From: Stappia indica
GTDB lineage: Bacteria > Pseudomonadota > Alphaproteobacteria > Rhizobiales > Stappiaceae
Assembly: GCF_020177335.1 (NCBI RefSeq)
Contig: NZ_JAIVMG010000006.1
Span: 124,001 to 188,000 of the forward strand
Direction of reading: 5' to 3'
Length of the DNA: 64,000 bases
The notes below the pieces were generated by a model, which saw only the letters and a program-made list of their open reading frames with translations, had not been told where the DNA came from and made no database searches. Shown in pieces: positions 21,558 through 47,893 of this stretch (position 1 is the first letter of the stretch; each line of letters starts with the position of its first letter). Position numbers and translations under genes: made by a program.

Positions 21558-21618
21558 AACCGCGCCGGTCAAAGGGGCAACCGCCGAGAAGCGATCCCAT
21601 TCCAGAGAGGGAAAAACC

Positions 21619-22758: not shown

Positions 22759-22777
22759 CGCCATCGCATCAACGACG

Positions 22778-22811: not shown

Positions 22812-22845
22812 CGGCTGACCTCAAGGACCGGATCGGAGATCGCCC

Positions 22846-25292: not shown

Positions 25293-25306
25293 AGGATCTT
25301 GAATTC

Positions 25307-26721: not shown

Positions 26722-27740
26722 AAGCGATATTCGACCAGCGCCAGGAACAGCACGATCCCAAACACTTCATGGCCAATGGTGCGCGGCTGGCCAATCCGGA
26801 ACAGCCGGCGCGGATCTCCGCGCTTCTTTCGGGCGCGCGGGCGGCCGGCTGCGACATCGCCGCGCCGGACGATCACGGGATGGGGCCGATTGCCGCCATC
26901 CACTCGCCGGAATACCTGGTGTTCCTGCAGACGATCCACACCCGCTGGAGCCGCATCGAAGGCGCGTCGGAGGAGGTGATCCCCAACATCCATCCGGACC
27001 GGCGCACGGCCAGCTATCCGCGCTCAGCCGCAGGGCAGGCCGGGTTCCACCAGGCCGACACCTCCTGTCCGATCTCCGCCGGAACCTGGGAGGCGGCCTA
27101 CTGGTCGGCGCAGACCGCGATCACCGGCGCTGACCTGATGCGCGGCGGCGCCCGCTCCGCCTATGCCCTGTGCCGGCCGCCGGGGCACCACGCCTTTGCC
27201 GATCTGGCCGGCGGGTTCTGCTTCCTCAACAATTCGGCGATTGCCGCCGAGCGGCTGCGCGCCCATGGGCTGCGGCCGGCGATCCTCGATATCGATGTGC
27301 ACCATGGCAATGGCACGCAAGGCATCTTCTATGAGCGCGGCGATGTGCTGACCGTGTCGATCCACGCCGATCCGGTGCGGTTCTACCCGTTCTTCTGGGG
27401 CCATGCCTCGGAGCGGGGCGAGGGTGCCGGGCGCGGCGCCAACCTCAACCTGCCCTTGGTGCGCGGTACGGGCGACGACGCCTATCTGGAGACGCTGGAG
27501 ACGGCGTTCGCACATATCCGGGCCTTTGGCACCGATGTTCTGATTGTCGCGCTGGGTCTTGATGCCTATGAGAATGATCCGCTGAAGGGGCTGGCGATCA
27601 CGACCGGGGGATTCGGGCGGATCGGCGCGGCCATCGGCGGGCTTGGATTGCCGACGCTGCTGGTGCAGGAAGGCGGTTATCTTGCGCCGGAGCTTGGCGA
27701 CAACCTGGCGAGTTTCCTGAAGGGGTTTGAAGCGGAATGA
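26718..27740 (+). CDS. Acetylpolyamine amidohydrolase (histone deacetylase superfamily)
   Basis: The 340-residue zinc hydrolase has RPPGHHAFADLAGGFCFLNN with catalytic His157-His158. The zinc ligands are Asp193 and His195 in DIDVHHGNG and Asp282 in LGLDAYENDP, and the catalytic tyrosine is Tyr321 in QEGGYLAPE. These lie within two residues of the positions known in Mycoplana acetylpolyamine amidohydrolase, and the insertion around residues 75-115 also fits that subfamily. It should remove acetyl groups from N-acetylated polyamines or similar cationic amides. It overlaps both neighbouring genes. Confidence 0.88.
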   Translation: MKAIFDQRQEQHDPKHFMANGARLANPEQPARISALLSGARAAGCDIAAPDDHGMGPIAAIHSPEYLVFLQTIHTRWSRIEGASEEVIPNIHPDRRTASYPRSAAGQAGFHQADTSCPISAGTWEAAYWSAQTAITGADLMRGGARSAYALCRPPGHHAFADLAGGFCFLNNSAIAAERLRAHGLRPAILDIDVHHGNGTQGIFYERGDVLTVSIHADPVRFYPFFWGHASERGEGAGRGANLNLPLVRGTGDDAYLETLETAFAHIRAFGTDVLIVALGLDAYENDPLKGLAITTGGFGRIGAAIGGLGLPTLLVQEGGYLAPELGDNLASFLKGFEAE

Positions 27741-28843
27741 CGACGACAGCGGATATCCTGGTGATTGGTGGCGGGATCGCCGGGATCGGTGCGGCGGCGC
27801 GCCTGTCCGGATCGGCCAATGTGGTGGTGCTGGAGAGCGAGGACGTGATCGGCCGGCATGCGACCGGCCGCTCGGCGGCGATCTTCATCAAGAACTACGG
27901 CAACGCCAGCTTGCGGGCGTTGAATGCGGCCTCCGAGCCGCTGCTGGCGACCGGTGGAGACCTCTCCGACACGCCCTTCCTGACCCCGCGCGGGGAACTG
28001 GTGGTCGCCACCGCCGGCGAAGAAGGTGATCTGGAGAGCTACCTTGATGGCTCCGACGGGCTGGAGCGGGTGACCCCCGCCGAGGCGGTGGCGATGTTCC
28101 CGATCCTGAACCCCGAATATGTGGTGGCCGCCGCGCTGGAGCGGGCGGCGCAGGACATCGACGTCGACCGGCTGTTGCAGGCCTACGCGCGGATGGCGCG
28201 GCACAACGGCGCGCGGGTCGTCGCTTCGGCGCCGGCCACCCGCATCACCCGCACCGGCGGTGTCTGGCAGGTGGAGGCGGGCGGGGAGACCTATGCCGCG
28301 CCGATCCTCGTCAACGCGGCGGGGGCCTGGGCGGATACCGTTGCCGAGCGTGCCGGCGTGCGCCCGGCCGGGCTGGTGCCGCTGCGCCGTTCTGCGGCGA
28401 TCCTGCCGGCACCGGAAGGCTGCGACGTGACCGGCTGGCCGGCGCTCGTCAGTGCCAGCGAGACCTGGTACGCCAAGCCGGAAGCGGGAAAGCTGATGGT
28501 CTCTCCGGCGGATGAGGATCCGGTGGAGCCGCATGACGCCTGGCCGGAGGACATGGTGCTGGCCGAGGGGCTGCACCGCTATGAACAGGCGATGACCGTG
28601 CCGGTGACCCGGGTGGAACGGAGCTGGGCCGGTCTTCGCACCTTCACCGCCGACCGCACGCCGGTGGTCGGCTTCGATCCCGAGGCGGACGGCTTCTTCT
28701 GGCTTGCCGGGCAGGGTGGATACGGTATCCAGACCTCGCCGGTGCTGTCGCGCCTTGCCGCCGACCTGTGCCTGTCGCAAACCTCTGATCTGCCGGCGCC
28801 TTTGCTGGCGGCGCTTTCCCCCGCACGTCTTGCACGTGCCTGA
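27737..28843 (+). CDS. FAD-dependent amine/amino acid oxidoreductase (DAO family)
   Basis: The 368-residue flavoprotein has the dinucleotide motif DILVIGGGIAGIGAAARLSG at the N-terminus and VIGRHATGRSAAIF soon after. The C-terminal FWLAGQGGYGIQTSPVLS is typical of D-amino acid/glycine oxidase-like enzymes. It overlaps the amidohydrolase stop by four bases. It probably oxidises an amine or amino acid of the same pathway to an imine, which the RidA-like protein downstream would help to hydrolyse. The electron acceptor and substrate are unknown. Confidence 0.85.
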   Translation: MTTTADILVIGGGIAGIGAAARLSGSANVVVLESEDVIGRHATGRSAAIFIKNYGNASLRALNAASEPLLATGGDLSDTPFLTPRGELVVATAGEEGDLESYLDGSDGLERVTPAEAVAMFPILNPEYVVAAALERAAQDIDVDRLLQAYARMARHNGARVVASAPATRITRTGGVWQVEAGGETYAAPILVNAAGAWADTVAERAGVRPAGLVPLRRSAAILPAPEGCDVTGWPALVSASETWYAKPEAGKLMVSPADEDPVEPHDAWPEDMVLAEGLHRYEQAMTVPVTRVERSWAGLRTFTADRTPVVGFDPEADGFFWLAGQGGYGIQTSPVLSRLAADLCLSQTSDLPAPLLAALSPARLARA

Positions 28844-29312: not shown

Positions 29313-30500
29313 CTATTCGGCCGCGGCCATATGCACCGGCGCGGCATTGGCGTTGAGGTGGTGCTGGTGGCGCATCTGGTTGAAGATGTTGATGCGCTGG
29401 ATATCGCTGGTGCCGCCGGCAATGCGCATGCCCACCGCGTCGCGCAACTGGCGGCTGAGGTGGTTGTTCATGAAGCCGAGATGGCCGTGCAACTGCACCA
29501 GGTGTTCGGCGGCCTCCAGCAGCTTTTCGCCCGCCAGGAACTTGCCGACGGAGCAGACGATGGACGCATCGTCGGTGTTGGCGGCCAGCTTCTCCAGCCC
29601 GGCATAGGTCATCAGCCGGCAGACCACCGAGGCGATCTTCATGTCGCTCATGCGGCCCTGCACATACTGATAATCGGCCAGCGGGCGGCGGAAGGCCTGG
29701 CGGCTTTCCACCCGCTGCATCGACTTTTCGAGCATGTTCTCGATCAGGCCGGAGGCCATGATGCCATAGAGCGCCCGTTCGAAGGAGATGATGCGGTAGA
29801 GGATCCGCAACCCGTCGCCCGGCTCGCCGATGATGTTGATCGGGTCGATGCGCGCGCCGTCGAAGGCGATGTTGGCGGTGGGGCTGGTGCGGATCCCGAG
29901 ATTGTCCTCCGTCGCCCCGAGGCGAATGCCGTCGGCGTCGAGATCGACGAAGAACAGGGTGATGTCGCGCTTTTCCCCCAGCGAGGGAATGCGCCCGGCG
30001 ATCATGCCGTGGGAGGCGATCGGTGCGTTGGTGATATGCACCTTCTCGCCATGCAGCCGCAAACCGTCCTCGGTGGGCAGGGCCGACACCGACATGCGGG
30101 CGAGATCGGAGCCGCCGCTCGCCTCGGTCATGGCGGTCACGCCGACATGGCCTTGCATGATGGTTTCGAGCCAGCGTGCCTTCTGCTCGGGGCTGCCTTC
30201 CTCCAGAATGATCCGCAGCGAGCCCACATGGCCCAGCATGGTGACGAGGAAGCCAAGATCCTCCGCCGTGGAGGCCACCCCTTCCATCGCCGCCGCGCAG
30301 TCGGTCCAGCTTCCGCCAAGCCCGCCGAGCGCCCTCGGCACCGGGATCCGCCACAGCCCTTCGCGGCTCATGCGGTCCCAGGTGGCGCGGTCGAAGCTTC
30401 CGTCTGCATCGTGTTGCTGTGCATTGGCGGCGGCCTGCTGGCCGATCTCTGCGTAGCGGGTGAAAAGGTCTTTCTGGTATTCGCTGAATTCGAAATTCAT
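29313..30500 (-). CDS. Acyl-CoA dehydrogenase family protein
   Basis: The 395-residue flavoprotein has MTEASGGSDLARM (FAD/substrate region), IHITN-like VHITNAPIAS and the C-terminal AGGTSDIQRINIF. In medium-chain acyl-CoA dehydrogenase the last motif is YEGTSQIQ and supplies the catalytic glutamate; here that residue is glycine. A glutamate in SFERALYGI occupies the position used by isovaleryl-CoA and long-chain dehydrogenases, so it may still be active. It runs convergent to the amine operon and lies downstream of a LysR gene on the same strand. Substrate unknown. Confidence 0.85.
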   Translation of the reverse strand: MNFEFSEYQKDLFTRYAEIGQQAAANAQQHDADGSFDRATWDRMSREGLWRIPVPRALGGLGGSWTDCAAAMEGVASTAEDLGFLVTMLGHVGSLRIILEEGSPEQKARWLETIMQGHVGVTAMTEASGGSDLARMSVSALPTEDGLRLHGEKVHITNAPIASHGMIAGRIPSLGEKRDITLFFVDLDADGIRLGATEDNLGIRTSPTANIAFDGARIDPINIIGEPGDGLRILYRIISFERALYGIMASGLIENMLEKSMQRVESRQAFRRPLADYQYVQGRMSDMKIASVVCRLMTYAGLEKLAANTDDASIVCSVGKFLAGEKLLEAAEHLVQLHGHLGFMNNHLSRQLRDAVGMRIAGGTSDIQRINIFNQMRHQHHLNANAAPVHMAAAE

Positions 30501-30732
30501 GACAGCATCCTCGTCCTGAATGAAGTCCGGTCAAAATTCGTGCGGAAGCTTGCGTTCCGGCGATATGACCCAAACACGGCAGGGCGAGAAAAAGAAATTA
30601 GTTCGGTATGTCTTGTCGATGAGCGAAATTAATGCCGGCTGACGTCTTGTCATTTCTGGTGATTGACGCAGTTGCAGGTCTGATTTCCGGTCCCGTTTTC
30701 AGTTTGATGAGCGGTCACTGGCGACGCGGCGC

Positions 30733-31653
30733 TCAGTCTGGCCGGTCGGCCGTGCCAGTGGTGGCGGTATCGTCCTGCGGTGCCGGCGGTGTGGACACCC
30801 CGACCTGAAAGGCGTGGGACAGGAAGGTCGCCAGCCGGACGATGCTGGCCGAGGCCTGCTGGTTGACCTTCACCAGAAGCTCGGAGCTGTGCAGGTTGGG
30901 CAAGCCGTATTCCGGGCCGATGCGGATCAGGTCCTGGGGCACCGCCCGGTCGGGCAGGACGCCGATGGCCTGGCGTTCCAGGATCGCCGTCTTCAGTGAG
31001 GAGAAGTTGTTGGAGCAATAGGCGATATGCCAGCGCTTGCCGATGGCGTTCAGCGCCTCGATGGCATTGCGCCGCACGCCGCAGCCTTCGGGAAACAGGG
31101 CAAGGGGCAGGGGGGTGTCCAGTGCCACGCGGGAATCGGGAACGGTGACCCAGCTCAGCCGCTCATCCAGCAGCTTCATCCCGTCGATCCCCTCGTGCCG
31201 GGTGACGAAGGCTATGTCGAGGTCGCCCTGGTCGATCATCTTCGACAGGGTGGTCGACAGATCGGTGACGATCTGCATTTCCGTCATCTCGTTGCGCTTG
31301 GAGAACTCGTTGATCACCCGGGGCAGCAGCAACTGGGCGTAATCGTCCGGCATCCCGATCCGCAGGGCTGTCACCGCGCTGGACGTCTGGATTTCCTGAA
31401 TGAGCGCATCGTTGAGACGCAAGATCTCGTTCGCATAGCTCTTGATCATCTCACCGTATTTTGTGAGACGAATTTCCTTACCGCTGCCGCGATCGAAAAT
31501 CGTTTCTCCAACAATACCTTCAAGCCGCTTGATCTGAAGGCTGATCGCCGATTGCGTTCGGTGCAGTTTCTCGCCCGCCGCCGTGAAGTTCTTCATTTCA
31601 GAGACAACAACCAGGGTCCGAAGCAGGTCGACATCTACATTGATCAATCCCAT
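30733..31653 (-). CDS. LysR-family regulator, divergent from the KAS III locus
   Basis: The 306-residue LysR protein starts MGLINVDVDLLRTLVVVSEM. Its helix-turn-helix is FTAAGEKLHRTQSAISLQIK, and its effector domain begins near ALRIGMPDDYAQLLLP. It is divergent from the KAS III gene (162-base gap) and upstream of the acyl-CoA dehydrogenase-like gene on the same strand. By the usual LysR rule it probably controls the divergent locus. No clear palindromic site was picked out in the gap. Confidence 0.87.
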   Translation of the reverse strand: MGLINVDVDLLRTLVVVSEMKNFTAAGEKLHRTQSAISLQIKRLEGIVGETIFDRGSGKEIRLTKYGEMIKSYANEILRLNDALIQEIQTSSAVTALRIGMPDDYAQLLLPRVINEFSKRNEMTEMQIVTDLSTTLSKMIDQGDLDIAFVTRHEGIDGMKLLDERLSWVTVPDSRVALDTPLPLALFPEGCGVRRNAIEALNAIGKRWHIAYCSNNFSSLKTAILERQAIGVLPDRAVPQDLIRIGPEYGLPNLHSSELLVKVNQQASASIVRLATFLSHAFQVGVSTPPAPQDDTATTGTADRPD

Positions 31654-31815
31654 GACGTTTCCTCATGCGATCTATTTTTCGAACTCATTTCAAAGGTCCG
31701 GTCGGGCTCGATAGGATGAAATCAATCTGAAAGCGAATTGAGCGGACATGCAACCATTAATTCGGGATTTGCGGGCTTCGGTCCGGCCAATTTCGACCTG
31801 ACCGGGAGATTTGTC

Positions 31816-32766
31816 ATGAAGCCTGCACTGCGTGTGATTTCGACAGGGGTGTGCCTTCCTGAGCGGATCGTCACAAATGACGAGATCCGCCGCGAACGGA
31901 ACGCGGCCATCGACCCGCAATGGGTCGAGAATACCCTGGGCATCCGCCAGCGCCGGATCGCCGAGGACGGGGTTCAGACATCCGATCTCGCCGCCAAGGC
32001 CGCCCGGGAGGCGCTGCGCAACGCGGGCGTTGCGGCGGACAGCATCGACCTGGTGATCGTCGCCACATCGAGCCCGGACCAGCGGGCCCCGGCCACCGCC
32101 TGCTTCGTGCAGAAGAAGGCCGGGCTGACCAACGCCATCGCCTTCGATGTTTCCGCCGTGTGCTCCGGCTTCCTGTTCTCGCTGACCACGGCCGCCTCGA
32201 TGCTGCATGCGGGCCAGGCGCGCCGGGCGCTGGTGATCGGCGCGGACATCTATTCCCGGGTCACCGACTGGGGGCGGCGCGACTGCGTGTTCTTCGGCGA
32301 CGGCTCCGGCGCGGCGCTGCTGGAGAGCGGGCCGCAAACCGCCCATGGACATTTTGATGCGGAGCTTTTCACCGACAGCACCGCCGCCCAGGCGTTTTCC
32401 ATCAAGGGGCAGGGCGACAGCTTCGACATGAACGGCCCGGCGGTGTTCAACGCGGCGAAGCACGCGGTGCCGCGCTGCATCAACGAGGTGCTGGCGCGCA
32501 ACGGCATGACCAGCTCGGACGTGGACATCGTCGTGCCGCATCAGCCCTCGCGCAGCTTGCTGGGCGAGATCGCCAGGCGGGCGGACATCCCCTTCGACCG
32601 GTTCCACCTCAACATGGACCGCTACGCCAACACGGTCGGCGCGACCATTCCGATTGCCCTGCATGAAGCGGTGATGGCCGGCAAGGTTCACTCCGGCGAC
32701 CGGATGCTGTTCGCCGCCGCCGGTGCCGGCTTCACCGCCGGCGCTGCCATTCACCACTGGTGCTAG
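31816..32766 (+). CDS. Beta-ketoacyl synthase III (KAS III/FabH-like)
   Basis: The 316-residue condensing enzyme has the complete KAS III triad: Cys116 in DVSAVCSGFLFS, His242 in VVPHQPSRS and Asn272 in RYANTVGATIP. Length and spacing match FabH. The ATG at 31816 follows GGGAGATTTG; open sequence upstream is not family-like. It is not next to fatty-acid genes or an acyl carrier gene. Its partners are an aminotransferase, a thioesterase and a ligase, suggesting a specialised condensation of CoA substrates rather than housekeeping fatty-acid initiation. Confidence 0.9.
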   Translation: MKPALRVISTGVCLPERIVTNDEIRRERNAAIDPQWVENTLGIRQRRIAEDGVQTSDLAAKAAREALRNAGVAADSIDLVIVATSSPDQRAPATACFVQKKAGLTNAIAFDVSAVCSGFLFSLTTAASMLHAGQARRALVIGADIYSRVTDWGRRDCVFFGDGSGAALLESGPQTAHGHFDAELFTDSTAAQAFSIKGQGDSFDMNGPAVFNAAKHAVPRCINEVLARNGMTSSDVDIVVPHQPSRSLLGEIARRADIPFDRFHLNMDRYANTVGATIPIALHEAVMAGKVHSGDRMLFAAAGAGFTAGAAIHHWC

Positions 32767-32775
32767 GAGGCTGTC

Positions 32776-34143
32776 ATGTCCCTGATCAAACCGGTTTCCG
32801 GCAAGGTCTACCCCGTGGCCGTCACCGCCTCCGGCGTGACGATCACCTCCGACAGCGGGCAGGAGTGGCTCGACGGCTCCTCCGGCGCGATTGCCTGCTC
32901 CATCGGTCACGGCCATCCGCATGTGGTGGAGTGCATCCGCCGCCAGCTTGAGACGGCGAGTTTCCTCTACCGCACCCAGTTCGCCAACGAACCGGCGGAG
33001 CGGCTTGCCGCCCGGCTGTGCGACAAGCTCGGCTATGCCAGCGCGTTCTTTGTCAACTCCGGCTCGGAGGCGGTGGAAACGGCGGTGCGGCTGGCGCAGC
33101 AGTACTGGCGCGAGGCCGGCCAGCCGGGCAAGACGCGGGTGCTCAGCCGGCGGATCAGCTACCACGGCGCGACCATCGGCGCGCTCGGCCTGTCCGGCCA
33201 TTGGCCCCGGCGGCGGTCGTGCGGCGGCGGGCTTTCGGGCGATCCGAGCCTGCCCACGCCCTATTGCCTGCGCTGCCCGCTCGGTCAGCGGCCGGACAGT
33301 TGCGGCTTTGCCTGCGCCCGGGCGCTTGAGGACGAAATCCGGCTGCATGGCGCCGACGCGGTGGCGGCGGTGATCATCGAGCCGATCGTCGGCGCCTCGG
33401 GGGCGGCGATCGTGCCACGGCCCGGCTATCTGAAGGCGATCCGCGAGATCTGCGACCGGCACGATGTGTTGTTGATCGCCGATGAGGTGCTGACCGGCCT
33501 TGGCCGTACCGGCGCCTGGCTGGGGATGGACCACGATGCGGTGCACGCCGATATCGTTTGCCTCGGCAAGGGGCTGAACGCCGGCTATCTGCCGATTTCC
33601 GGCGTGCTGGTCGATGCCCGGATCCAGGACCTGCTGACGGCGCGGGCCGCGTCCTTCACCCTCGGGCACACCCACTCGAACCATCCGGTGGCGGCGGCCG
33701 CCGCCAATGCGGTGCTCGATGTGCTGGAGAGCGAGGACCTGATCGCCCGGGCCGCGTCGACGGGGGCCTACCTTGGCGCGCGGCTGCAGGAGATGAGCGA
33801 GGACCTGCCCTTTGTCGGCGATGTGCGCGGACGGGGCATGTTCTGGGGGCTGGAACTGATCCACGACGACATCAGCTACGCACCGTTCGACCCGGAGCTG
33901 AACGCGGCCGATTGCGTGGTGCGCCATGCCTTTGATGCCGGCGTTCTCATCTATCCGGCAGCCGGTTTCATCGCCGGATCGGCAGGCGATGCGGTGATCG
34001 TCGCGCCGCCGCTCAACAGCTCGCACGCGGTGATCGACACCATCATCGAGCGCCTTGCCATCGCCCTGTCCGGCGCCGGCCGCGAGCTTCTTGTCCGGCG
34101 CAACGCCCCAACCTCCAATCAACAGGAGCCATCATGTCCATGA
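32776..34143 (+). CDS. Class III aminotransferase with cysteine-rich insertion
   Basis: The 455-residue PLP enzyme has GSSGAIACSIGHGHPHVV, VNSGSEAVETAV, LIADEVLTGLGRTG and the PLP lysine Lys265 in CLGKGLNAGY. Residues about 160-181 contain CLRCPLGQRPDSCGFAC, four cysteines in a CxxC-x8-CxxxC-like array. A corresponding segment occurs in some class III aminotransferases, but metal binding is untested. It starts nine bases after the KAS III gene and overlaps the thioesterase by ten bases. It may aminate the keto product of the KAS III step. Confidence 0.87.
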   Translation: MSLIKPVSGKVYPVAVTASGVTITSDSGQEWLDGSSGAIACSIGHGHPHVVECIRRQLETASFLYRTQFANEPAERLAARLCDKLGYASAFFVNSGSEAVETAVRLAQQYWREAGQPGKTRVLSRRISYHGATIGALGLSGHWPRRRSCGGGLSGDPSLPTPYCLRCPLGQRPDSCGFACARALEDEIRLHGADAVAAVIIEPIVGASGAAIVPRPGYLKAIREICDRHDVLLIADEVLTGLGRTGAWLGMDHDAVHADIVCLGKGLNAGYLPISGVLVDARIQDLLTARAASFTLGHTHSNHPVAAAAANAVLDVLESEDLIARAASTGAYLGARLQEMSEDLPFVGDVRGRGMFWGLELIHDDISYAPFDPELNAADCVVRHAFDAGVLIYPAAGFIAGSAGDAVIVAPPLNSSHAVIDTIIERLAIALSGAGRELLVRRNAPTSNQQEPSCP

Positions 34144-34538
34144 TCCCGCTGAAACCGAACCTGAAGGGTGTGCTGGTCCATGAGGTCAAGCCGACGGACC
34201 TTGCCACCAACTGGCGCAACAATGTGCCGGTTCTGGCAACGCCGGTGCTGCTCTGGCTGGCGGAGCTGGCCTGCATGCGGGCCATTGAGGGCACGCTGGA
34301 GGAAGGTCGGATGACCCTGGGCTTTGCCCATGATGTCCGGCATCTGGCGCCGACGCCGCTTGGCTGGACGATCCGGCTGGAGGCGGAGCTGGAGAAGATC
34401 GACGGCAAGCTGCTGACGTTCCTGATCGAGGGGCACGACGGTTCGGAACGCATCCTGGCCGGACGGCATACCCGGGCAATCGTTGATCGAGACCGGTTCC
34501 TGAGCCGGTTCGAGGAAAAGCAGTGCAGTCATGTCTGA
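34134..34538 (+). CDS. Hotdog thioesterase of the fluoroacetyl-CoA thioesterase (FlK) type
   Basis: The 134-residue protein has VLATPVLLWLAELAC and a later HDVRHLAPTPLG. Thr36, Glu44 and His70 have exactly the spacing of the FlK catalytic triad (Thr42, Glu50, His76). FlK hydrolyses fluoroacetyl-CoA, but most relatives have other acyl-CoA substrates, and no fluorinase-type gene is present. It overlaps the genes on both sides. A likely task is release or proofreading of the acyl product in this locus. Confidence 0.78.
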   Translation: MSMIPLKPNLKGVLVHEVKPTDLATNWRNNVPVLATPVLLWLAELACMRAIEGTLEEGRMTLGFAHDVRHLAPTPLGWTIRLEAELEKIDGKLLTFLIEGHDGSERILAGRHTRAIVDRDRFLSRFEEKQCSHV

Positions 34539-35559
34539 GCCCCTCGTATCCGCCGCAACCCCACACACGCCGGCCCAGAGCGGCGGTTCGCTCCGGGCCA
34601 CACGGGACCGTTTCGCCATGTTGACATCGCAGCAGAATTTCCGTGCCTATGCCATGCTCGTCACCGGCGGGGTGTGTCTTGGCATGTCGCCGGTGGTGGT
34701 CAAGGCGCTGCCGATCTCCGCCGATCTGTCGGCGTTCTACCGGGTCGCCTTTTCCGCGCCGCTGTTCATGCTGTGGGCGCTTTGGGACCGGCCCAATGCT
34801 GCGCGCCGCGCCGAAGCGGGCGAGGGGGAGCCGGCGGCACCTGCGGCGGCAAAGCGCATGCTCTACATGCTCTACGGGCTGGCGGCGCTGCTGTTCGCGG
34901 CGGATCTGGTGGCCATGCATGTCGCCATTCGCCTGACCAATGCCTCAATCGCCACGCTCTTCACCAACTGCGCGCCGTTCTTCGTCGGGGTCTACGGTAT
35001 TCTCGGGCTCACCGACCGGCCGAAGCGCGCCTTCTGGCAGGCGTTGCCGGTGGCGCTCCTCGGCGCGACCCTGCTGGTCGGGGTGTCGGCCTTCACCTCC
35101 GGCGGCGATCTCTGGGGCGATGCCATCGCCTTGCTCGCCGGGGCCTTCTACGCCGCCTATCTGGTGACCGTCCGGCAATTGAAGCTGGCAGGGGCTTCCT
35201 CCGTCTCGATCATGGTGATCGTCACCGCCGGCAGCGCCCTGTGCCTTCTGCCGCTGGTATTCCTCGGCGGCGGTTTCGTCTCCGCCTCCCTGTCGACCTG
35301 GGGGCTGATCGCCGTTCTGGTGCTGATCGGGCAGGTGGCGGGGCAGGGGCTGGTGACCGGGGCGCTGAAGCATTTGCCGGTGACCTCCAGTTCCATCGTG
35401 CTCCTGATCCAGCCGGTGGTGGCGGCGCCGCTGTCGTGGGTCTTCCTGTCGGAGACCCTGAGCCTTTTACAGATCACCGGCATGGGGCTGGTGCTGTTCT
35501 CCATCGCCGTGGTGGTGCGGCCGCAGCGGCGCGAGGTGGCGGCGGAGGCGGCCGGCTAG
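34531..35559 (+). CDS. EamA/DMT-family transporter
   Basis: The 342-residue membrane protein has about ten hydrophobic segments in two EamA repeats: VTGGVCLGMSPVVVKAL near residue 45 and DLWGDAIALLAGAFYAAYLV near residue 195. It also has the C-terminal VVAAPLSWVFLSETLS. Members export small metabolites or amino acids. It overlaps the thioesterase stop by eight bases, so it belongs to the locus and is a candidate exporter. The first 30 or so residues are hydrophilic and a start near residue 30 (MLTSQQNFRAY) is possible. Confidence 0.85.
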   Translation: MSEPLVSAATPHTPAQSGGSLRATRDRFAMLTSQQNFRAYAMLVTGGVCLGMSPVVVKALPISADLSAFYRVAFSAPLFMLWALWDRPNAARRAEAGEGEPAAPAAAKRMLYMLYGLAALLFAADLVAMHVAIRLTNASIATLFTNCAPFFVGVYGILGLTDRPKRAFWQALPVALLGATLLVGVSAFTSGGDLWGDAIALLAGAFYAAYLVTVRQLKLAGASSVSIMVIVTAGSALCLLPLVFLGGGFVSASLSTWGLIAVLVLIGQVAGQGLVTGALKHLPVTSSSIVLLIQPVVAAPLSWVFLSETLSLLQITGMGLVLFSIAVVVRPQRREVAAEAAG

Positions 35560-35772
35560 CGCTGCTCCGCCGCACCGGGGCGCAAGCCGCTTCCCGTCTG
35601 CTGCGCCGACAGGATCCCCGCTTTTCATCTTCCGACAAAGGTCCTCGGGCCCGGTGTGCAGTGCATTCCGGGTCGGGAGACCCGACTGCGAAAACAAGAC
35701 CGCACAAGAACGGCGGCCTCCAGGGACGGCCTGGCGCGCTCTGCGCGGGGCTTGGCAAGGAAAGGGAAGGAA

Positions 35773-37095
35773 ATGACCAAGCTGATCATCGGAAATGTCG
35801 ACAATGAGCATCAGGTGGCGGATGTGTCGCGCTATACGCGACAGGAACAGTCCGAGATCATCCTGTGCAATCAGCGGATGCTGTGGATGGCCCGACCGGG
35901 CGACGTGGTGGTTCTGCCGACCGCGCCGGAGCCGGAGATCGTTGCCTATTGGGCGAAGCTCAACGGCTGCGCGACTTCCGACATCACGCTGCTGGCGCCG
36001 CGCACGGACGGCCCTTGCGCCTTTCTGCGGCAGGAGGAATTGTTCGCTCCCGGTTTCGTCGCCGAATGCCGAGCGGTCATCGCCGCGCTGCCGGAAGATC
36101 GGCGGCCGCGCGAATTGCTCGCCTATTTTCCCGACAACTACATGGCGGAATTCGCCCGCGAGATCGGTGTTGAGGTCGCCGACCGGTTCTACGGCGAGGG
36201 TGGGGCGACGCTGCTGAACCAGAAAACTGCCTTCCGCAAGATCGCCGCCGGTCTTGGCGTGCCGATTCCCGAAGGGGCGATCAGCGACAACGCGGCGGAT
36301 CTGCGCCGGGCGATCCTGCGCATGGTCGAGGCCGGAAAGGACTTCATCATCAAGCTCGACCGGCATTCCGGCGGTTTCGGCAATCTCATCGTCCATGGAC
36401 CGCGCACCTCGGGGCGCAGCCAGGGCTCTTCCTCGGTGCAGCGCTACGATACGGTCGAGGAGGGGCGTGCCTTGTGCGAGCGGATCGTGCCGCGCGTCAC
36501 CGAAGCGGCAGTGGTCGAGGAATACCTGCCGACCGAGACGGTGCTTTACAGCGAATATCTGATCGAGGGGCCAGGCCGTTTCCGTCACCTCAACGATGGC
36601 ACCATGGACATGGAGCCCTTGTGGGTCGGCTTCGAGATCCCCGGCAGCTATGCGTTGCACCACCGGACCCTGTTTCTCGACCACAGTGCCCGCATCGTCG
36701 CGGCGGTGTCGCAACTGGGCTATCGCGGCTACATCAACATCGACGGTCTGGTGGCCAATGGCAGTTGCCACGTCAACGAGATCAACGGTCGCTGCGGCGG
36801 CTGCACCCATATCTTCGAGATCGCCCGACGCCAGTTCGGCGACCGGGTGCTCGGGGCCAAGCATATCAAGAGCTACAATCACGGGATTTGCCGCGAGCGA
36901 GGGCAGTTGGTGGCGACCCTCGCGGCGCACGGGCTGTTGTTCGAGCCGGGCAAGGAGAGCGGGGTGATCCCGTTCAACGTCGACTACGATCTGGAAAATG
37001 CCTTCGAATACATGACGGTGGCCAACTCGCCAGAGGAGGCGCGACGGCTCAGCGAACGCACGCTTGCCGCGTTCCGCGCGCAGATGGTCGCCTGA
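35773..37095 (+). CDS. ATP-grasp ligase, possible peptide/amide ligase
   Basis: The 440-residue protein has ATP-grasp features: NQKTAFRKIAAGLGVPIPEG (about residues 149-168) and DFIIKLDRHSGGFGN with Lys194 and a glycine-rich loop. VVEEYLPTE and the metal/ATP segment INIDGLV (Asp324) to HVNEINGRCGG (Glu336, Asn338, Arg340) follow. The N-terminal 140 residues (LIIGNVDNEHQVADV) resemble the pre-ATP-grasp domain of PGM1-like peptide ligases. The ATG at 35773 follows AAGGGAAGG. It probably forms an amide or ester between a carboxylate and an amino compound made in this locus (inference). Confidence 0.75.
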   Translation: MTKLIIGNVDNEHQVADVSRYTRQEQSEIILCNQRMLWMARPGDVVVLPTAPEPEIVAYWAKLNGCATSDITLLAPRTDGPCAFLRQEELFAPGFVAECRAVIAALPEDRRPRELLAYFPDNYMAEFAREIGVEVADRFYGEGGATLLNQKTAFRKIAAGLGVPIPEGAISDNAADLRRAILRMVEAGKDFIIKLDRHSGGFGNLIVHGPRTSGRSQGSSSVQRYDTVEEGRALCERIVPRVTEAAVVEEYLPTETVLYSEYLIEGPGRFRHLNDGTMDMEPLWVGFEIPGSYALHHRTLFLDHSARIVAAVSQLGYRGYINIDGLVANGSCHVNEINGRCGGCTHIFEIARRQFGDRVLGAKHIKSYNHGICRERGQLVATLAAHGLLFEPGKESGVIPFNVDYDLENAFEYMTVANSPEEARRLSERTLAAFRAQMVA

Positions 37096-37185
37096 TCGGC
37101 GGGCAGTGCAAGGAGTGACCCGGGGCGGCGGCGTTGGCCGCTGCCGCCCCTGTCGAAACCGTCGAAGGGGTGAGGAGACGGCGCG

Positions 37186-38406
37186 ATGAGCAAGGCAGGA
37201 GCAAGTGTCGCGGAAGGCAGGGCTTCGGCGAGGAAACGGCGGGTCACATTGCCAGCGGCGCTGTGGCGGCTGGTGGCGGTGCAGACCCTGATGAACGGCT
37301 CGCATTTCATGGCCATGCCGCTGTTGGCGGTGTTTTGCAGTGAGGTGCTGAAGCTTCCGGTGGTGGCGGTGGGCAGCGTTCTGGCGGTCTATTTCATCGC
37401 CGCGCGGGTGATGCCGGTGGTGGTCGCGCCGCTGGTCGACCGGTTCGGGCTGTGGCCGGCGGTGACCACCGGCCTCATGTTGCGGGGCGCCGGTTTTCTC
37501 GGTCTCTATCTGGCGGCGGGGCAGCGGGACGCGGTGCTGATGGCGGCGGCGCTCGGTCTGGGAACGGCGATCTACGAGGCGGGCGCCTATGGGGTGATCG
37601 GCGCGCAGGCACAGGCCGAGCGCGAGCGGCTGATCGTCACCAATGCGCAAGGGCTGAACCTTGGCTGTGTGTTCGGGCCGCTCGCCGGGGCCGGACTGGC
37701 GATGATTGACATCGCCTTGCCGCTGCTGCTCAGCGGCCTGCTCTTTCTGGCACTGGCCTGCGGCACGCTGCTGGAGCGCGCCGAGGTGCTGCGTGCGCAT
37801 CGGCCGCAAGCGGTGCGCGACAGTCTTGGCTCGGTTCTCGGCGACAAGCCGTTCCTGGTGCTGTGCCTTGCATTGGTGCCGTGGTGGGCGCTGTTTGCCC
37901 AGCTGTTCGCGGCGTTTCCCATCGAGGCGACCGCGCGCGGAGGTTCGGCCAGTTGGGCCGGATCGGTGCTCGTCGTCAATGGCGCGATCGGCTTTCTGGT
38001 GCTGTTTGTCGTGCCGGCGCTGATCCGCTATCTCGGCACTCTTGGTCTCTTGTTTGCCGCCGCCGCTGTTGGCGGGCTCGCCATTGCCTCGGTCGGGTTC
38101 ACGCCGGGGCTGTGGCCGCTGCTGGTGCTGGTGGGGCTGTTCTCGGCGGCGGAGATCGCGATTCTCGCGGCGGCGGAGATCCTGGTCGGGCGGCACGCCG
38201 GCGGGCGGGCGGTGGCGACGTTTTTCGCCGTCTTCAACATGAGCTGGGGCGTTGGCGGAGCCATTGGCGGCGCGGTGGGGCCGTGGATCGCCTCAATGCC
38301 GACCGGCGGCGCGGCCTGGGCGGCGCTGGGCGCCTCGGCGCTGCTGACCCTTGCCGGCTTTGCTCTTTACCTATGGATGCGGCCGGTGGCCCTGGAGGAC
38401 GGCTGA
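37186..38406 (+). CDS. MFS transporter
   Basis: The 406-residue membrane protein has about twelve hydrophobic segments. FIAARVMPVVVAPLVDRFGL (about residue 70) corresponds to the MFS loop 2-3 motif, and NMSWGVGGAIGGAVGPWIA lies in the C-terminal half. Its position after the ATP-grasp gene on the same strand suggests that it exports the product. It is followed by the convergent IclR gene. Confidence 0.86.
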   Translation: MSKAGASVAEGRASARKRRVTLPAALWRLVAVQTLMNGSHFMAMPLLAVFCSEVLKLPVVAVGSVLAVYFIAARVMPVVVAPLVDRFGLWPAVTTGLMLRGAGFLGLYLAAGQRDAVLMAAALGLGTAIYEAGAYGVIGAQAQAERERLIVTNAQGLNLGCVFGPLAGAGLAMIDIALPLLLSGLLFLALACGTLLERAEVLRAHRPQAVRDSLGSVLGDKPFLVLCLALVPWWALFAQLFAAFPIEATARGGSASWAGSVLVVNGAIGFLVLFVVPALIRYLGTLGLLFAAAAVGGLAIASVGFTPGLWPLLVLVGLFSAAEIAILAAAEILVGRHAGGRAVATFFAVFNMSWGVGGAIGGAVGPWIASMPTGGAAWAALGASALLTLAGFALYLWMRPVALEDG

Positions 38407-38434: not shown

Positions 38435-39214
38435 TCAGCGCAGGCTCGGCGTGATGCTGTTGGCGGTGTCGAGCAGGAAGGGCACGATGTCCTTCTCAAC
38501 CTTCTCCCGGGTCCAGTGATAGGCGGAGACCGAGCAATGCACGGCCGCAACCGGCCGGCCATCCGCGCCGATGATCGGTGCGGCAACGCCGATTTCCTTG
38601 AGAATCAGCTCATTGCGGGAAAATGAGTAGCCCAGATGCGCCGCTTCCTCGACAAGCTCGGCGATCTTGTCGCGATCCTGGGTCGTCTCCGGGGTGAAGC
38701 GGGCCAAGGGCCAGTTTTCGATGCAGGCGCGGCGCTCGGCTTCCGGCAGCATCGCCAGGATCGCCCGGCCCCCCGAGGTGTTGAGCGCGGGAACCCGGCG
38801 GCCGACCAGCGTGGCGGCAAAGGTGGTCCGCTGGCAGGGGATTCGCGCAACATAGACAATGTCGGAGCCGGACAGTTCCGCCATGTTGATCGTCTCGCCA
38901 AGGCGTCCGGACAGCTCGATCAGCTTGGGCATCGCCAGCTGCACCACCGGGTCGGACCAGAGGTAGGCATAGGCCATTTCCGCGAATTTATGCGAGGGGC
39001 GAAAGCGCCGGGTCGCTTCATCCTTCATCAGATAGCCGGTCTGATAGAGGGTGTTGGCAAACCGCTGGGTCGCGCTCTTGTCGAGGCCGGTGCGCTTTGC
39101 CAGTTCACTTAATCCAAGGCTCTGATGCTCCTCGTCAAAAGCTTCCAGAAGCCGGAGGCCCTTGGCCAACGAATTGACAAATAACGTATCCTGCTTCCGA
39201 TCCGCCATGGTCAT
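38435..39214 (-). CDS. IclR-family transcriptional regulator
   Basis: The 259-residue regulator has the IclR winged helix (LFVNSLAKGLRLLEAF, LGLSELAKRTGLDKSATQRF) and an effector domain with LPEAERRACIENWPLARFTP and AVHCSVSAYHWTREK. It is divergent from the dpp-type operon. A perfect inverted repeat in the shared 166-base gap is its probable operator, so it likely controls peptide uptake genes. Confidence 0.9.
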   Translation of the reverse strand: MTMADRKQDTLFVNSLAKGLRLLEAFDEEHQSLGLSELAKRTGLDKSATQRFANTLYQTGYLMKDEATRRFRPSHKFAEMAYAYLWSDPVVQLAMPKLIELSGRLGETINMAELSGSDIVYVARIPCQRTTFAATLVGRRVPALNTSGGRAILAMLPEAERRACIENWPLARFTPETTQDRDKIAELVEEAAHLGYSFSRNELILKEIGVAAPIIGADGRPVAAVHCSVSAYHWTREKVEKDIVPFLLDTANSITPSLR

Positions 39215-39258
39215 CGGGCCTCTCCCCTACGTCGAGCTGTTTTTCTACCTGACGGCTC

Positions 39259-39327
39259 TTGACGAGTTTGTCCGAAGTAAGGTGATATACCATTATCAAA
39301 TACATTGTATCGAAATATGATACAATG
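39259..39327. promoter_or_regulatory. dpp-type operon promoter region with perfect inverted repeat (candidate IclR operator)
   Basis: CATTGTATC (39303-39311) and GATACAATG (39319-39327) are perfect inverted 9-base arms with seven bases between. Just upstream, TTGACG (39259-39264) and TGATAT (39283-39288) with an 18-base spacer form a rightward promoter candidate. The repeat would then lie immediately downstream of the -10, a place suited to repression. The stretch is clearly AT-richer than its neighbours. Confidence 0.65.
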
Positions 39328-39380
39328 AAAATGATTTCGCCGGCGTACGGGAGCGCCGTGCCAGCCCATGTGGAGGATCC

Positions 39381-40895
39381 ATGAAGTCTCTTTCCCTGAA
39401 ATGCGGCGTTGCCGCTCTTGCGTTGATGGTCGCGGGTGCGGCTCATGCGGGCAAGTCGGACGACACGCTGAATGTCGCCTTCACCAAGGAGCTGGAAAAC
39501 GTCGACAGCTACTTCAACTCCTCGCGTGAGGGTGTGGTGTTGCAGCGTGCGGTCTGGGACGGGCTCGTCTACCGCGATCCGGTGACCAACGAGTACAAGG
39601 GCAACCTGGCCACGTCCTGGGAGTGGATCGACGACCTGACGCTGGAGTTCAAGCTGCGCGAGGGCGTCAAGTTCCACAATGGCGAGGAATTCGACGCCGA
39701 CGATGTGGTCTACACCGTCAACTACGTCGCCGACGAAAAGAATGGCGCGAAGACCCAGCGCAACGTCAACTGGATGAAGTCGGCGGAGAAGGTCGACAAG
39801 TACACCGTGCGGATTTCGCTCAAGAAGCCGTTCCCGGCGGCGATCGAGTTCCTGTCCGGTCCGGTGTCCATCTATCCGAACGAGTATTATGCCGAGGCCG
39901 GCCCGACGGGCATGGGCCTGAAGCCGGTGGGCACCGGTCCCTACAAGGTGACCGAGGTGGAACCGGGCAAGCATTTCGTGCTGGAGAAGTACGAGGGCTA
40001 TCACGACAGCCCGAAGGGCCAGCCGAAGGTCGGCAAGATCGACATTCGCACGATCCCCGATGTCAACACCCAGATGGCGGAGCTGTTCAGCGGCTCGCTC
40101 GATCTGATCTGGCAGGTTCCGGCCGACCAGGCGGGCAAGCTTGGGGCGATGGAGCAGTTCACCGTCGCCAATGAAAGCACCATGCGCATCGGCTACCTGA
40201 CGCTGGATGCGGCGGGTCGGACCGGTGAGAAAAACCCCTTCACCGACGTGCGCGTGCGCCGGGCCGTTGCCCATGCCGTCAACCGGGAAGCGCTGGTCGC
40301 GGCTCTCCTGAAGGGCAAGTCGAAGGTCATCAGCACCGCCTGTTTCCCCAGCCAGTTCGGCTGCTTCCAGGACGTTGCAAACTATGAATACGACCCGGAA
40401 AAGGCCAAGGCGCTGCTCGCCGAGGCCGGCTATCCGGACGGCTTCGAGACGGATTACTACGCCTATCGGGACCGTGAGTATGCCGAGGCGATCTCCAGCT
40501 TCCTGAACGCGGTCGGCATCAAGACCAACTTCCACATGCTGCAGTACTCGGCCCTGCGCGAGTTGCGGATGAAGGGCGGCACGCCGGTCTCGTTCCAGAC
40601 CTGGGGCTCCTACTCCATCAACGACGCCTCGGCGATCACCAGCCAGTTCTTCAAGTTCGGCTCGCTGGATGATTCCCGCGACGAGGAGGTGCGCGACTGG
40701 CTCGACGTGGCCGACAGCGCCACCGATCCGGAGAAGCGCAAGGAGTACTACGCCAAGGCCCTGACCAAGATCGCGGATCAGGCCTATTGGGTGCCGATGT
40801 TCTCCTACAACACCAACTACGTGTTCACCAACGAGGTGTCCTACACCCCGACGCCGGACGAGGTCCTGCGTTTCGTGGACATGTCCTGGAACTAG
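39381..40895 (+). CDS. Peptide-type ABC transporter binding protein (DppA/OppA family)
   Basis: The 504-residue secreted protein has a signal peptide ending AGAAHAG. SBP family 5 features follow: VVLQRAVWDGLVYRD, FKLREGVKFHNGEEFDADDV near residue 95, and VRRAVAHAVNREALV. It is the first gene of a peptide/oligopeptide type importer. The ATG at 39381 follows GGAGGATCC. A long hairpin lies directly after its stop codon. With gamma-glutamyltransferase and an M20 peptidase downstream, small (perhaps gamma-glutamyl) peptides are plausible ligands. Confidence 0.9.
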   Translation: MKSLSLKCGVAALALMVAGAAHAGKSDDTLNVAFTKELENVDSYFNSSREGVVLQRAVWDGLVYRDPVTNEYKGNLATSWEWIDDLTLEFKLREGVKFHNGEEFDADDVVYTVNYVADEKNGAKTQRNVNWMKSAEKVDKYTVRISLKKPFPAAIEFLSGPVSIYPNEYYAEAGPTGMGLKPVGTGPYKVTEVEPGKHFVLEKYEGYHDSPKGQPKVGKIDIRTIPDVNTQMAELFSGSLDLIWQVPADQAGKLGAMEQFTVANESTMRIGYLTLDAAGRTGEKNPFTDVRVRRAVAHAVNREALVAALLKGKSKVISTACFPSQFGCFQDVANYEYDPEKAKALLAEAGYPDGFETDYYAYRDREYAEAISSFLNAVGIKTNFHMLQYSALRELRMKGGTPVSFQTWGSYSINDASAITSQFFKFGSLDDSRDEEVRDWLDVADSATDPEKRKEYYAKALTKIADQAYWVPMFSYNTNYVFTNEVSYTPTPDEVLRFVDMSWN

Positions 40896-40909
40896 GCTGA
40901 ACGGTTCTT

Positions 40910-40942
40910 CCGGCCGGGACCTGAAAGAAAGGTTCCGGCCGG
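40910..40942 (+). promoter_or_regulatory. Strong intercistronic hairpin between binding-protein and permease genes
   Basis: CCGGCCGGGACCT (40910-40922) pairs with AGGTTCCGGCCGG (40930-40942) over 13 positions with one G-U pair, and has a seven-base GAAAGAA loop. No U-tract follows. The position, 14 bases after the stop codon, suits differential expression of the binding protein over the membrane parts. Confidence 0.65.
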
Positions 40943-40999
40943 TCGTCGTTCCTGGCCACGGACGGCGCCGGCCCTGGGCTGGCCGGTGCGGCCGTTGGC

Positions 41000-41941
41000 G
41001 TGCCCAACCCGCGGGATACCCCCTTGCTAAACTTCATCCTGAAACGGCTCGGTCTTGCCGTGCTCGTCGCGCTGACCGTATCGGCGATCAGCTTCAGCCT
41101 GCTGTTCATGGCGGGTGATCCGGCCGCGGCGCTCGCCGGCGAACAGGCCACCGATGTCGATATCGAAGCCATCCGCCGGCTCTATGGTTTCGACCGGCCC
41201 ATGATCGTCCAGTACTGGGAATGGCTGTCGCGGGCGCTGCAGGGCGACTTCGGCGAAAGCTACTATTTCCGCCTGCCGGTCGCCGATCTGATCATGGAAC
41301 GGCTGTCGATCACCATGACGCTCGGCGTCTGCGGCATTTCCTTTGCGCTCTTGACGGCGGTGCCGCTGGGTGTGGTCGCCGCGATCCGTCCGAACTCGCT
41401 GATCGACCGTTTCGCGCTGTTCCTGTCGGTGATGGGGCAGGCGATGCCGAGCTTCTGGTTCGGCCTGATGATGATCGTCGTCTTCTCGATCCAGCTCAAC
41501 TGGCTGCCGCCTTCGGGCACCAAGACCTGGGTGCACTTCATCATGCCGACCATCGTGCTGGGCTATTACGCCATGCCGGCGATCATGCGGCTGACGCGCG
41601 CGGGCATGCTCGACGTGCTCGGCTCGGACTATATCCGGACCGCGCGGGCCAAGGGCGCGGGCGAGGGGCGGGTGCTGTTCAAGCATGCCCTGCGCAACGC
41701 GATCATCCCGGTGGTGTCGCTGGCGGCGGTGCAGATGGGCTTCATGCTCGGCGGTTCCATCGTGGTGGAATCGATCTTCGCCCTGCATGGGGCGGGGTAT
41801 CTGGCCTGGGAATCCATTGGCCGCAACGACCTGCCGACGGTGCAGGCGCTGATCCTGGTCTTCTCGATGTTCTACATCGTCTTCACATTCCTGTCGGACG
41901 TGCTGAATGCCTGGCTCGATCCGCGCATCAGGGTGGCTTGA
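41000..41941 (+). CDS. Peptide-type ABC transporter permease (DppB family)
   Basis: The 313-residue membrane protein has a DppB-type N-terminus (LNFILKRLGLAVLVALTVS) and the coupling segment YIRTARAKGAGEGRVLFKHA (about residue 215). A GTG at 41000 gives nine extra residues; a TTG at 41024 would give the more usual MLNFILKRLG start, and the choice is open. It is followed one base later by the DppC-type gene. Confidence 0.88.
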   Translation: MPNPRDTPLLNFILKRLGLAVLVALTVSAISFSLLFMAGDPAAALAGEQATDVDIEAIRRLYGFDRPMIVQYWEWLSRALQGDFGESYYFRLPVADLIMERLSITMTLGVCGISFALLTAVPLGVVAAIRPNSLIDRFALFLSVMGQAMPSFWFGLMMIVVFSIQLNWLPPSGTKTWVHFIMPTIVLGYYAMPAIMRLTRAGMLDVLGSDYIRTARAKGAGEGRVLFKHALRNAIIPVVSLAAVQMGFMLGGSIVVESIFALHGAGYLAWESIGRNDLPTVQALILVFSMFYIVFTFLSDVLNAWLDPRIRVA

Positions 41942-41942
41942 G

Positions 41943-42839
41943 ATGACGCGCACAGCCGATACCCTCCTGGAGGAGATCCAGGGCCCGACACCCGGCCAGA
42001 TGCTGCGCAAGCGCGTCTTCGGTCATCAGGGACTTCTGTTCGGCGTGGCCGTTCTCGGCCTGCTGCTGCTGGTGGCGATCTTCGCCCCGCTGCTGGCGCC
42101 GCATGACCCCTACGCCCAGGACCTGCTCGCCCGGATGCAGCCGCCGGTGTTTCTCGGCGGCAGCTGGGAGCATCCGCTGGGCACCGACCATCTTGGCCGT
42201 GACTATCTTTCGCGGCTGATCTACGGGGCGCGGATCTCGCTGCTGATCGGCGGCTTCGCGGCCCTGATCTCCGGCCTGATCGGCACGGCGATGGGCGTTG
42301 CCGCCGGCTATTTCGGCGGCCGGGTCGACATGGCGGTGACCTTCCTCATCAATGTGCGGCTGGCCATGCCGGTGGTGCTGGTGGCGCTCGCCATCGTCGC
42401 CGTGTTCGGCGGCTCGCTGCAGGTGGTGATCCTGGTGCTCGGCTTCCTGCTGTGGGACCGGTTCGCCGTGGTGATGCGCTCTTCCACGCTGCAGGTGCGC
42501 TCGCGCGAATACGTCACCGCCGCGCAGGCGATTGGCTGTTCGACCTCGCGGGTGATCCTCAGCGAGATCATGCCGAACATCGTCAACAACCTGATCGTCG
42601 TCGTCACGCTGGAGATGGCCCACGCGATCCTGCTGGAAGCGGCGCTGTCGTTCCTCGGGCTGGGCGTCCAGCCGCCGACGCCCTCCTGGGGCCTGATGGT
42701 CTCGGAAGGCAAGCAGATGATGCTGTTCGAGCCCTGGCTGGTGGCCATTCCCGGCATCACCCTGTTCGTCCTGGTGCTGGCGATCAACCTGCTCGGCGAC
42801 GGGCTGCGCGATGTCACCGCTCCCGAAAACCGCAGCTAA
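41943..42839 (+). CDS. Peptide-type ABC transporter permease (DppC family)
   Basis: The 298-residue membrane protein has DppC hallmarks: LLAPHDPYAQDLLARM near residue 55, GTDHLGRDYLSRLIYGARIS and the coupling loop YVTAAQAIGCSTSRVILSEI. The C-terminal FLGLGVQPPTPSWGLMVSEG is also typical. The ATG at 41943 directly follows the DppB-type stop. It pairs with the preceding permease. Confidence 0.9.
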   Translation: MTRTADTLLEEIQGPTPGQMLRKRVFGHQGLLFGVAVLGLLLLVAIFAPLLAPHDPYAQDLLARMQPPVFLGGSWEHPLGTDHLGRDYLSRLIYGARISLLIGGFAALISGLIGTAMGVAAGYFGGRVDMAVTFLINVRLAMPVVLVALAIVAVFGGSLQVVILVLGFLLWDRFAVVMRSSTLQVRSREYVTAAQAIGCSTSRVILSEIMPNIVNNLIVVVTLEMAHAILLEAALSFLGLGVQPPTPSWGLMVSEGKQMMLFEPWLVAIPGITLFVLVLAINLLGDGLRDVTAPENRS

Positions 42840-42852
42840 GGAGGAAAGCCCC

Positions 42853-44843: not shown

Positions 44844-44888
44844 TCCGGGGCCCCAACATTGGGGGCAGTGGAACAAGAAAGACCGATT

Positions 44889-46469: not shown

Positions 46470-46471
46470 CC

Positions 46472-47863: not shown

Positions 47864-47893
47864 CGGTTGCGGACGCACCAATGGTGATATCGG

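Follow-up and report, generated by a model that had tools for sequence, protein, structure and literature searches.

An eight-gene unit and its conservation

The window analysed here is a 64,000-nucleotide stretch of Stappia indica (contig NZ_JAIVMG010000006.1, positions 124,001 to 188,000). It contains a real, conserved biosynthetic unit of eight genes, composed of a flavoenzyme of the acyl-coenzyme A (CoA) dehydrogenase fold (ACAD), a LysR-type regulator, and six plus-strand genes for enzymes and exporters. The unit very probably serves specialised biosynthesis and export. Going by sequence, it would be a newly seen orphan relative of the clusters built around PGM1-type peptide ligases, with a chemistry predicted from its enzymes. 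No cluster with this gene set was found in the open-licence literature searched, in agreement with the original prediction made from the window.

The six plus-strand genes begin with a KAS III paralogue (beta-ketoacyl synthase III family, PF08545/PF08541) at positions 31816 to 32766. It is followed by a class III pyridoxal phosphate (PLP) aminotransferase (AT; PF00202) at 32776 to 34143, a candidate beta-keto-acyl aminotransferase, and by a FlK-type hotdog thioesterase (PF22636) at 34134 to 34538. An EamA-family exporter (PF00892) lies at 34531 to 35559, a homologue of PGM1-type ATP-grasp peptide ligases (PreAtp-grasp and PGM1_C) at 35773 to 37095, and the final gene, a major facilitator superfamily (MFS) exporter (PF07690), at 37186 to 38406. 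All six open reading frames (ORFs) are intact and match the expected Pfam families. The overlaps between genes and the gaps of 213 and 90 bases were confirmed at this locus, as was the divergent LysR gene (minus strand, 30733 to 31653; Pfam HTH_1 and LysR_substrate). The ACAD gene, on the LysR strand at 29313 to 30500 (Pfam ACAD domains), had been overlooked in the original gene list, which otherwise held for the six genes and the regulator.

The order ACAD-LysR / KAS III-AT-FlK-EamA-ligase-MFS is identical in all four of the other Stappiaceae loci (L010 to L013), which belong to Pannonibacter sp. SL95, Pannonibacter carbonis Q4.6, an uncultured Pseudovibrio and Roseibium litorale. The ACAD gene adjoins LysR in each of them at 62 to 82% identity and is therefore counted as part of the unit. 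LysR keeps its place and orientation in all four (46 to 69% identity), and the EamA and MFS exporters are present at 47 to 61% and 54 to 69% identity, respectively. A ligase search of 151 genomes (the own genome and 150 relatives) matched six, the own included; the matches in relatives were four from the same family at 60 to 64% identity and one remote match at 26%. A contig scan with two peptide patterns, which would overlook distant relatives, recovered the same four loci. The spacing between EamA and the ligase differs, at about 40 to 65 bases in L010, L011 and L013 and about 110 to 150 in L012, so the 213-base gap of the window is not general.

Presence of the unit is sporadic. The ligase was found in 5 of 87 family genomes, in none of the 13 other genomes of the genus, in 2 of 385 class genomes (the own and a remote match in G121), and in 3 of 398 phylum genomes (the own, G121 and G704). 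The G121 and G704 ligases, from Hyphomicrobiales, are 25 to 27% identical, and the other nine window proteins were not found in the 19 to 20 kb fetched around them. An ACAD match at E < 1e-85 was found in 1 of 385 class genomes (the own) and in 6 of 87 family genomes.

The divergent intergenic region (31654 to 31815) is likely a control region common to both sides, and contains short conserved stretches in the five-locus alignment. A scan of this region for sigma-70-type promoters returned none, with 0.5 expected. A terminator scan returned 7, against 4.3 expected, and is uninformative.

A second occurrence of the enzymes lies in another phylum. The ligase was compared with plasmids by tblastn, giving 21 records, every one below 60% identity. 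Among the 13 records opened for their neighbourhood, the full enzyme set was present only in pPZG101 and pSRP1.2 of Streptomyces rimosus, which both come from strain R6-500 and so represent one independent case. The row reads KAS III-AT-ACAD-FlK-ligase (36, 38, 47, 50 and 30% identity), followed by a CGNR gene and an MFS gene. The S. rimosus set resembles the window unit in having these five enzyme genes together, with an MFS gene nearby. It differs in that the ACAD gene sits within the row, CGNR replaces LysR, no EamA gene is among the annotated neighbours, and the ligase is only 30% identical. The set thus crosses phyla, on a large plasmid of an industrial oxytetracycline strain. The portion of the R6-500 plasmid report cited here gives a single antiSMASH cluster, a type I polyketide synthase (PKS) in two copies (PMC9045324).

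A Rhodococcus plasmid contains a KAS III, a divergent class III AT (29%), an ACAD (39%), a FlK (39%), a CGNR gene and an MFS gene. The set was not found within 6 kb flanks of the plasmid FlK loci of Tistrella, Novosphingobium, Methylobacterium, Nonomuraea and Burkholderia arboris.

Co-occurrence of the enzymes in Stappiaceae and S. rimosus is firm. As far as tested, the genes are not scattered over unrelated contexts. The original view of the genes as one unit is upheld by the gene order shared with the four other Stappiaceae loci and by the enzymes standing together on the Streptomyces plasmid. Judged by the trees described below, a single common ancestor for the whole set is shown for FlK alone and is possible for ACAD.

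Predicted pathway and its enzymes

The pathway proposed for the unit, which is given about an even chance of being right, runs from condensation through amination on the thioester, release by FlK and ligation to export. KAS III would make a beta-keto thioester by condensing a malonyl unit with an acyl-CoA other than acetyl-CoA. The AT would aminate the beta carbon with the thioester still intact, the FlK-type thioesterase would release the beta-amino acid, and the PGM1-type ligase would use ATP to activate a carboxylate and couple it, through an amide bond, to an amino acid or small peptide. EamA and MFS would export the product and LysR would control the unit. For the ACAD, the two likeliest roles would be to supply KAS III with an alpha,beta-unsaturated starter acyl-CoA or to oxidise the thioester intermediate. 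If true, a single KAS III, transaminase, thioesterase, flavoenzyme and ligase would make up a minimal route that turns an acyl-CoA into an exported amide and lacks a carrier gene of its own. The earlier description of a complete pathway was not sustained, as it hinges on the starter, the carrier, the role of the ACAD and the partner of the ligase. Each enzyme lends itself to a separate assay, so whether amination precedes release could be decided directly.

The catalytic Cys-His-Asn triad that had been read in the KAS III is present, and is kept in all four Stappiaceae rows and in S. rimosus. Positions R36, N247, R249 and F87 are given in what we take to be E. coli FabH numbering. All 30 presumed FabH rows have R36, N247 and R249, which none of the four Stappiaceae rows keeps; at the F87 gate position, the four Stappiaceae rows have Ala, and 28 of the 30 FabH rows have Phe. 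The FabH control rows were the 29 best-scoring of 80 other matching genomes and the own. The window KAS III scores 266.6 bits on the FabH model TIGR00747, under the cut-off of 292.1, and 307 on the broader subfamily model NF006829, over the cut-off of 249. On a type III PKS-like model it reaches 26.2 bits, with a cut-off of 27. In the tree, the FabH group does not include the four Stappiaceae sequences, which make up a clade of their own (100/100). The window protein is thus like FabH in family and triad and differs in these four positions and in its TIGR00747 score. Structural work on FabH presumably links the lost residues to carrier binding and to the size of the acyl pocket, which suggests an altered carrier binding and an enlarged acyl pocket in the Stappiaceae enzymes.

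The KAS III was also considered as the fabH of this genome. This was rejected; a separate FabH-like KAS III is located on contig C1 and the key residues differ, so that, as far as tested, the window protein is set apart from FabH by sequence. The original statement that no housekeeping fatty-acid gene is present is accordingly true of the locus and not of the genome.

The AT scores 294.7 bits on PF00202 (cut-off 30.5). Its best curated model is the equivalog NF005375 (PRK06917), at 464.7 bits and under the cut-off of 535. B. subtilis YodT is presumably the Bacillus member of this family. In the part of the source cited, YodT is described as uncharacterised (PMC6522883). In the AT tree, the four Stappiaceae sequences (99/98) form a 100/99 clade with those of Cytobacillus, S. 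rimosus, Paraburkholderia and Paenarthrobacter. Of 256 plasmid records with AT relatives, 4 were opened, showing one beta-lysine context, one neighbour encoding a beta-keto acid cleavage enzyme (BKACE), and two contexts without a clear link to beta-amino acids. The Cytobacillus AT, within the clade, adjoins genes for lysine 2,3-aminomutase, beta-lysine N-acetyltransferase and 3-oxoacid CoA-transferase. The ATs of L097 (in this window) and L144 adjoin BKACE genes and fall just outside the clade, in a wider 89/88 group. The clade relative in a beta-lysine operon, together with the BKACE-adjacent ATs, favours amination at the beta carbon by the window AT, and the earlier assignment of a beta-amino acid to this step fits.

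The order of steps was originally given as release of the beta-keto acid by the thioesterase, followed by transamination to the beta-amino acid and ligation. The same enzymes suffice for this order, and the cited part of the work on Kat, the 3-aminobutyryl-CoA aminotransferase, includes a Mesorhizobium AT that acts on free beta-amino acids (PMC3149608). The same text describes beta-keto acids as prone to decarboxylation, and Kat as active on 3-aminobutyryl-CoA and inactive on the free acid (PMC3149608). Kat is likened to the window AT by function alone, as a class III AT working at the beta carbon, and differs in being annotated as HemL-like. Lability of the free acid and the thioester precedent of Kat make amination before release the likelier order. 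Gene content does not fix the sequence of steps, and the order with release first is considered unlikely.

In a second alternative, the released beta-keto acid would lose CO2 to give a methyl ketone. The AT would convert this ketone into a chiral amine, which would then be acylated with an amino acid by the ligase. An omega-transaminase (5lh9) is among the nearest PDB matches of the AT, and FlK could free the labile beta-keto acid. The relative in the beta-lysine operon, and the naming of the solved PGM1-type homologue 8ynd as a peptide ligase, speak against this route, which appears decidedly improbable.

In the thioester-first pathway, release falls to the FlK-type enzyme. Its T36, E44 and H70 align with T42, E50 and H76 of FlK chain 3kv7. 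S. rimosus and five Stappiaceae rows form a six-row group in the FlK tree (96/82), in which the S. rimosus end branch is long, with Rhodococcus outside. FlK-like genes are present in 31 of 385 class genomes (the own included). In flanks of about 1.5 kb around 29 of the 35 FlK places outside the own genome, no KAS III, AT, EamA or ligase matches were found. The window thioesterase shares PF22636 and the Thr-Glu-His residues with the fluoroacetyl-CoA thioesterase FlK. It differs in context: the Pfam scan recognised no fluorine-metabolism gene beside it, so the neighbourhood lends fluoroacetyl-CoA specificity no support. Use of FlK as a fluoroacetate marker was likewise unsupported, the 29 places checked in class genomes being without those four matches.

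In the ACAD tree, the sequences of Stappiaceae, S. rimosus, Rhodococcus, TdaE (the tropodithietic acid flavoenzyme) and B. arboris form an eight-row clade (100/99), apart from 13 other ACADs of the genome, which were those found at E <= 1e-15 and served as the comparison with ordinary ACADs. TdaE is represented by a single row (L140), assigned as such because of its surroundings on a Phaeobacter plasmid. A topology that unites the six unit ACADs is not rejected (p-AU 0.264). The Glu of the SCAD motif YEGT is Gly in the window ACAD. At the FER position, the Stappiaceae rows have Glu; S. rimosus and Rhodococcus have Asp, TdaE has Gly and B. arboris has Asn. The Glu of the Stappiaceae ACADs is presumably comparable to the position of the base in isovaleryl-CoA dehydrogenase, and the retention of an acid here makes a dehydrogenase function plausible.

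The ACAD may instead be a TdaE-like flavin oxygenase, with an oxygenated or ring-oxidised acid as the product rather than a simple beta-amino acid. The shared clade points this way, as do the grouping of the S. rimosus ACAD with TdaE inside it (95/87) and the repertoire of TdaE, to which the part of the source cited ascribes dehydrogenation together with CoA-ester oxygenolysis and epoxidation (PMC8283759). Of the traits expected in a TdaE-type enzyme, the branching was found; the TdaE residue at the FER position and a tropone context were not. The unit ACADs retain an acidic residue at that position, the Pfam scan recognised no tropone gene in the unit, and the thioesterase beside TdaE belongs to another family (4HBT_2) and gives no alignment with the window FlK. 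The oxygenase is regarded as doubtful. A further ACAD neighbourhood was seen in Burkholderia arboris (L067, 4809 to 6375), where a TdaE-clade ACAD is directly followed by a FlK-type thioesterase; only the pair is present, and it is unannotated in the record.

For the last enzymatic step, the ATP-grasp protein is identified by homology as a PGM1-type peptide ligase homologue, in keeping with the amide-type ligase proposed earlier. It scores 74.0 bits on PreAtp-grasp (cut-off 27.5) and 25.5 bits on PGM1_C (cut-off 22.5). It matches the PGM1 structure 3wvq at E 3.4e-41 over profile positions 34 to 435 of 442, and the ATP-grasp peptide ligase 8ynd at 1e-36. The third PDB match is weak (8yi6, L-propargylglycine-glutamate ligase, 9e-8). 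On plasmids, an MFS gene frequently lies close to a PGM1-type ligase gene. The unit resembles the PGM1 (pheganomycin) and ketomemicin clusters in having a PGM1-family ligase within a small cluster; the ketomemicin clusters are independent of the ribosome and of nonribosomal peptide synthetases (NRPS), according to the passage cited (PMC11943689). It differs in its precursor module, KAS III-AT-ACAD-FlK; in the Pfam scan of 28 window proteins, no aldolase, amidinotransferase or type III PKS passed its cut-off. The type III PKS DpgA and amidinotransferase annotated beside the ligase in L061, a pheganomycin arrangement, are thus not found among these proteins.

Several points weigh against the proposed unit and pathway. 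No carrier protein was found within the unit. Its product and substrates are predicted from sequence. The S. rimosus KAS III does not join that of Stappiaceae and pairs with Rhodococcus away from it (with a long-branch warning and unsettled bootstrap); it retains R36 and R249, so the residue loss is not general. The S. rimosus ACAD groups with TdaE and B. arboris (95/87), and its AT branches with other ATs on the opposite side of the clade (88/88). Unrelated plasmid ATs reach 43% identity, compared with 38% for the S. rimosus AT, and the other two non-unit ATs of the clade (L141 and L143, Paraburkholderia and Paenarthrobacter) have neighbours with no clear link to beta-amino acids. In the ligase tree, S. 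rimosus and Stappiaceae are not sisters (p-AU 0.051 when held together), so the ligase may have entered the set twice, by separate recruitment or replacement. The Rhodococcus set, with its divergent AT and no annotated ligase, is weak evidence because its KAS III is broken in frame.

Decay of the unit in relatives

A collapsed copy was located in G013, a sister species within the genus, at L150 (G013:C5) 6805 to 9982, with flanks about 95% identical to those of the window. This is the sixth family genome with an ACAD match. LysR (306 codons) and EamA (342 codons) are still open frames, and are the only whole genes of the eight. The matches skip window positions 29781 to 30381 (approximately), inside ACAD, and 30507 to 30762, between ACAD and LysR. 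They also skip 31954 to 34235, which covers most of KAS III, the AT and the start of FlK, save one 36-base match inside, and 35561 to 38305, which covers the ligase and nearly the whole MFS gene. The dN/dS values between the window and G013 are 0.09 for EamA, 0.10 for LysR and 0.07 for the flanking IclR gene, and mostly reflect shared history.

The copy in P. carbonis (L013/L017) has an internal stop in KAS III and a frame break in the ligase, where sequencing error is possible. It is otherwise close to the copy of Pannonibacter sp. SL95. Loss of biosynthetic genes and sporadic presence fit dispensable specialised metabolism. A clean empty site was not obtained; G002 and G003 match the right flank only, and G013 showed a deletion series.

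The EamA exporter of the collapsed G013 copy may have been kept as immunity. A more speculative reading of the unit, regarded as a long shot, makes the product a masked antimetabolite. The ACAD would make an alpha,beta-unsaturated starter, for instance a CoA ester of the methacrylyl or crotonyl type, which KAS III would accept in its opened pocket, and the AT would yield an allylic beta-amino acid, of a kind able to inactivate PLP enzymes. The PGM1-type ligase would mask this as a dipeptide for export, with EamA doubling as self-immunity. If true, the G013 copy, with LysR and EamA whole, would be a non-producer that kept its immunity.

Flanking genes and other ligase loci

To the left of the unit, a likely catabolic operon lies on the plus strand at 19860 to 28840. 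It contains ABC uptake genes, a GNAT acetyltransferase, a histone-deacetylase-like deacetylase and a DAO oxidoreductase, together with a class III AT (23910 to 25292) and a BKACE (25178 to 26233). The operon looks like one for the breakdown of beta-amino acids or acetylated polyamines. To the right, positions 38435 to 49815 contain an IclR-family regulator, an Opp/Dpp-type ABC transporter, a gamma-glutamyltranspeptidase, an M20 peptidase and a GMC oxidoreductase. This is predicted to be a peptide uptake and cleavage set adjoining a peptide-ligase unit.

The IclR gene and the Opp/Dpp transporter were considered as members of the unit and rejected, since they were not found in L010 to L013 and occur in G002 and G003 without the unit (there, the binding protein and IclR).

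The catabolic look of both flanks could extend to the unit itself, with the AT, thioesterase and ACAD degrading imported beta-amino or branched acids and the linkage to ligase and exporters incidental. The order with two exporters and a peptide ligase is kept in all four other loci, no uptake system lies within the unit, and the right-hand neighbours occur apart from it, all of which argue against degradation and make it highly improbable. Biosynthesis and export remains the preferred reading.

Two further kinds of PGM1-type ligase neighbourhood were seen on plasmids. In Rhodococcus sp. AQ5-07 (L062), the ligase adjoins ACAD, AMP-binding, carrier protein, NRPS and KAS III C-terminal genes, apparently another mixed ligase cluster. 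In two Curtobacterium plasmids and one of Streptomyces anthocyanicus (L056, L057 and L079), the ligase lies beside isochorismatase, chorismate-binding/anthranilate-synthase-like and MFS genes. These isochorismatase-associated loci may represent a second recurrent type of ligase cluster.

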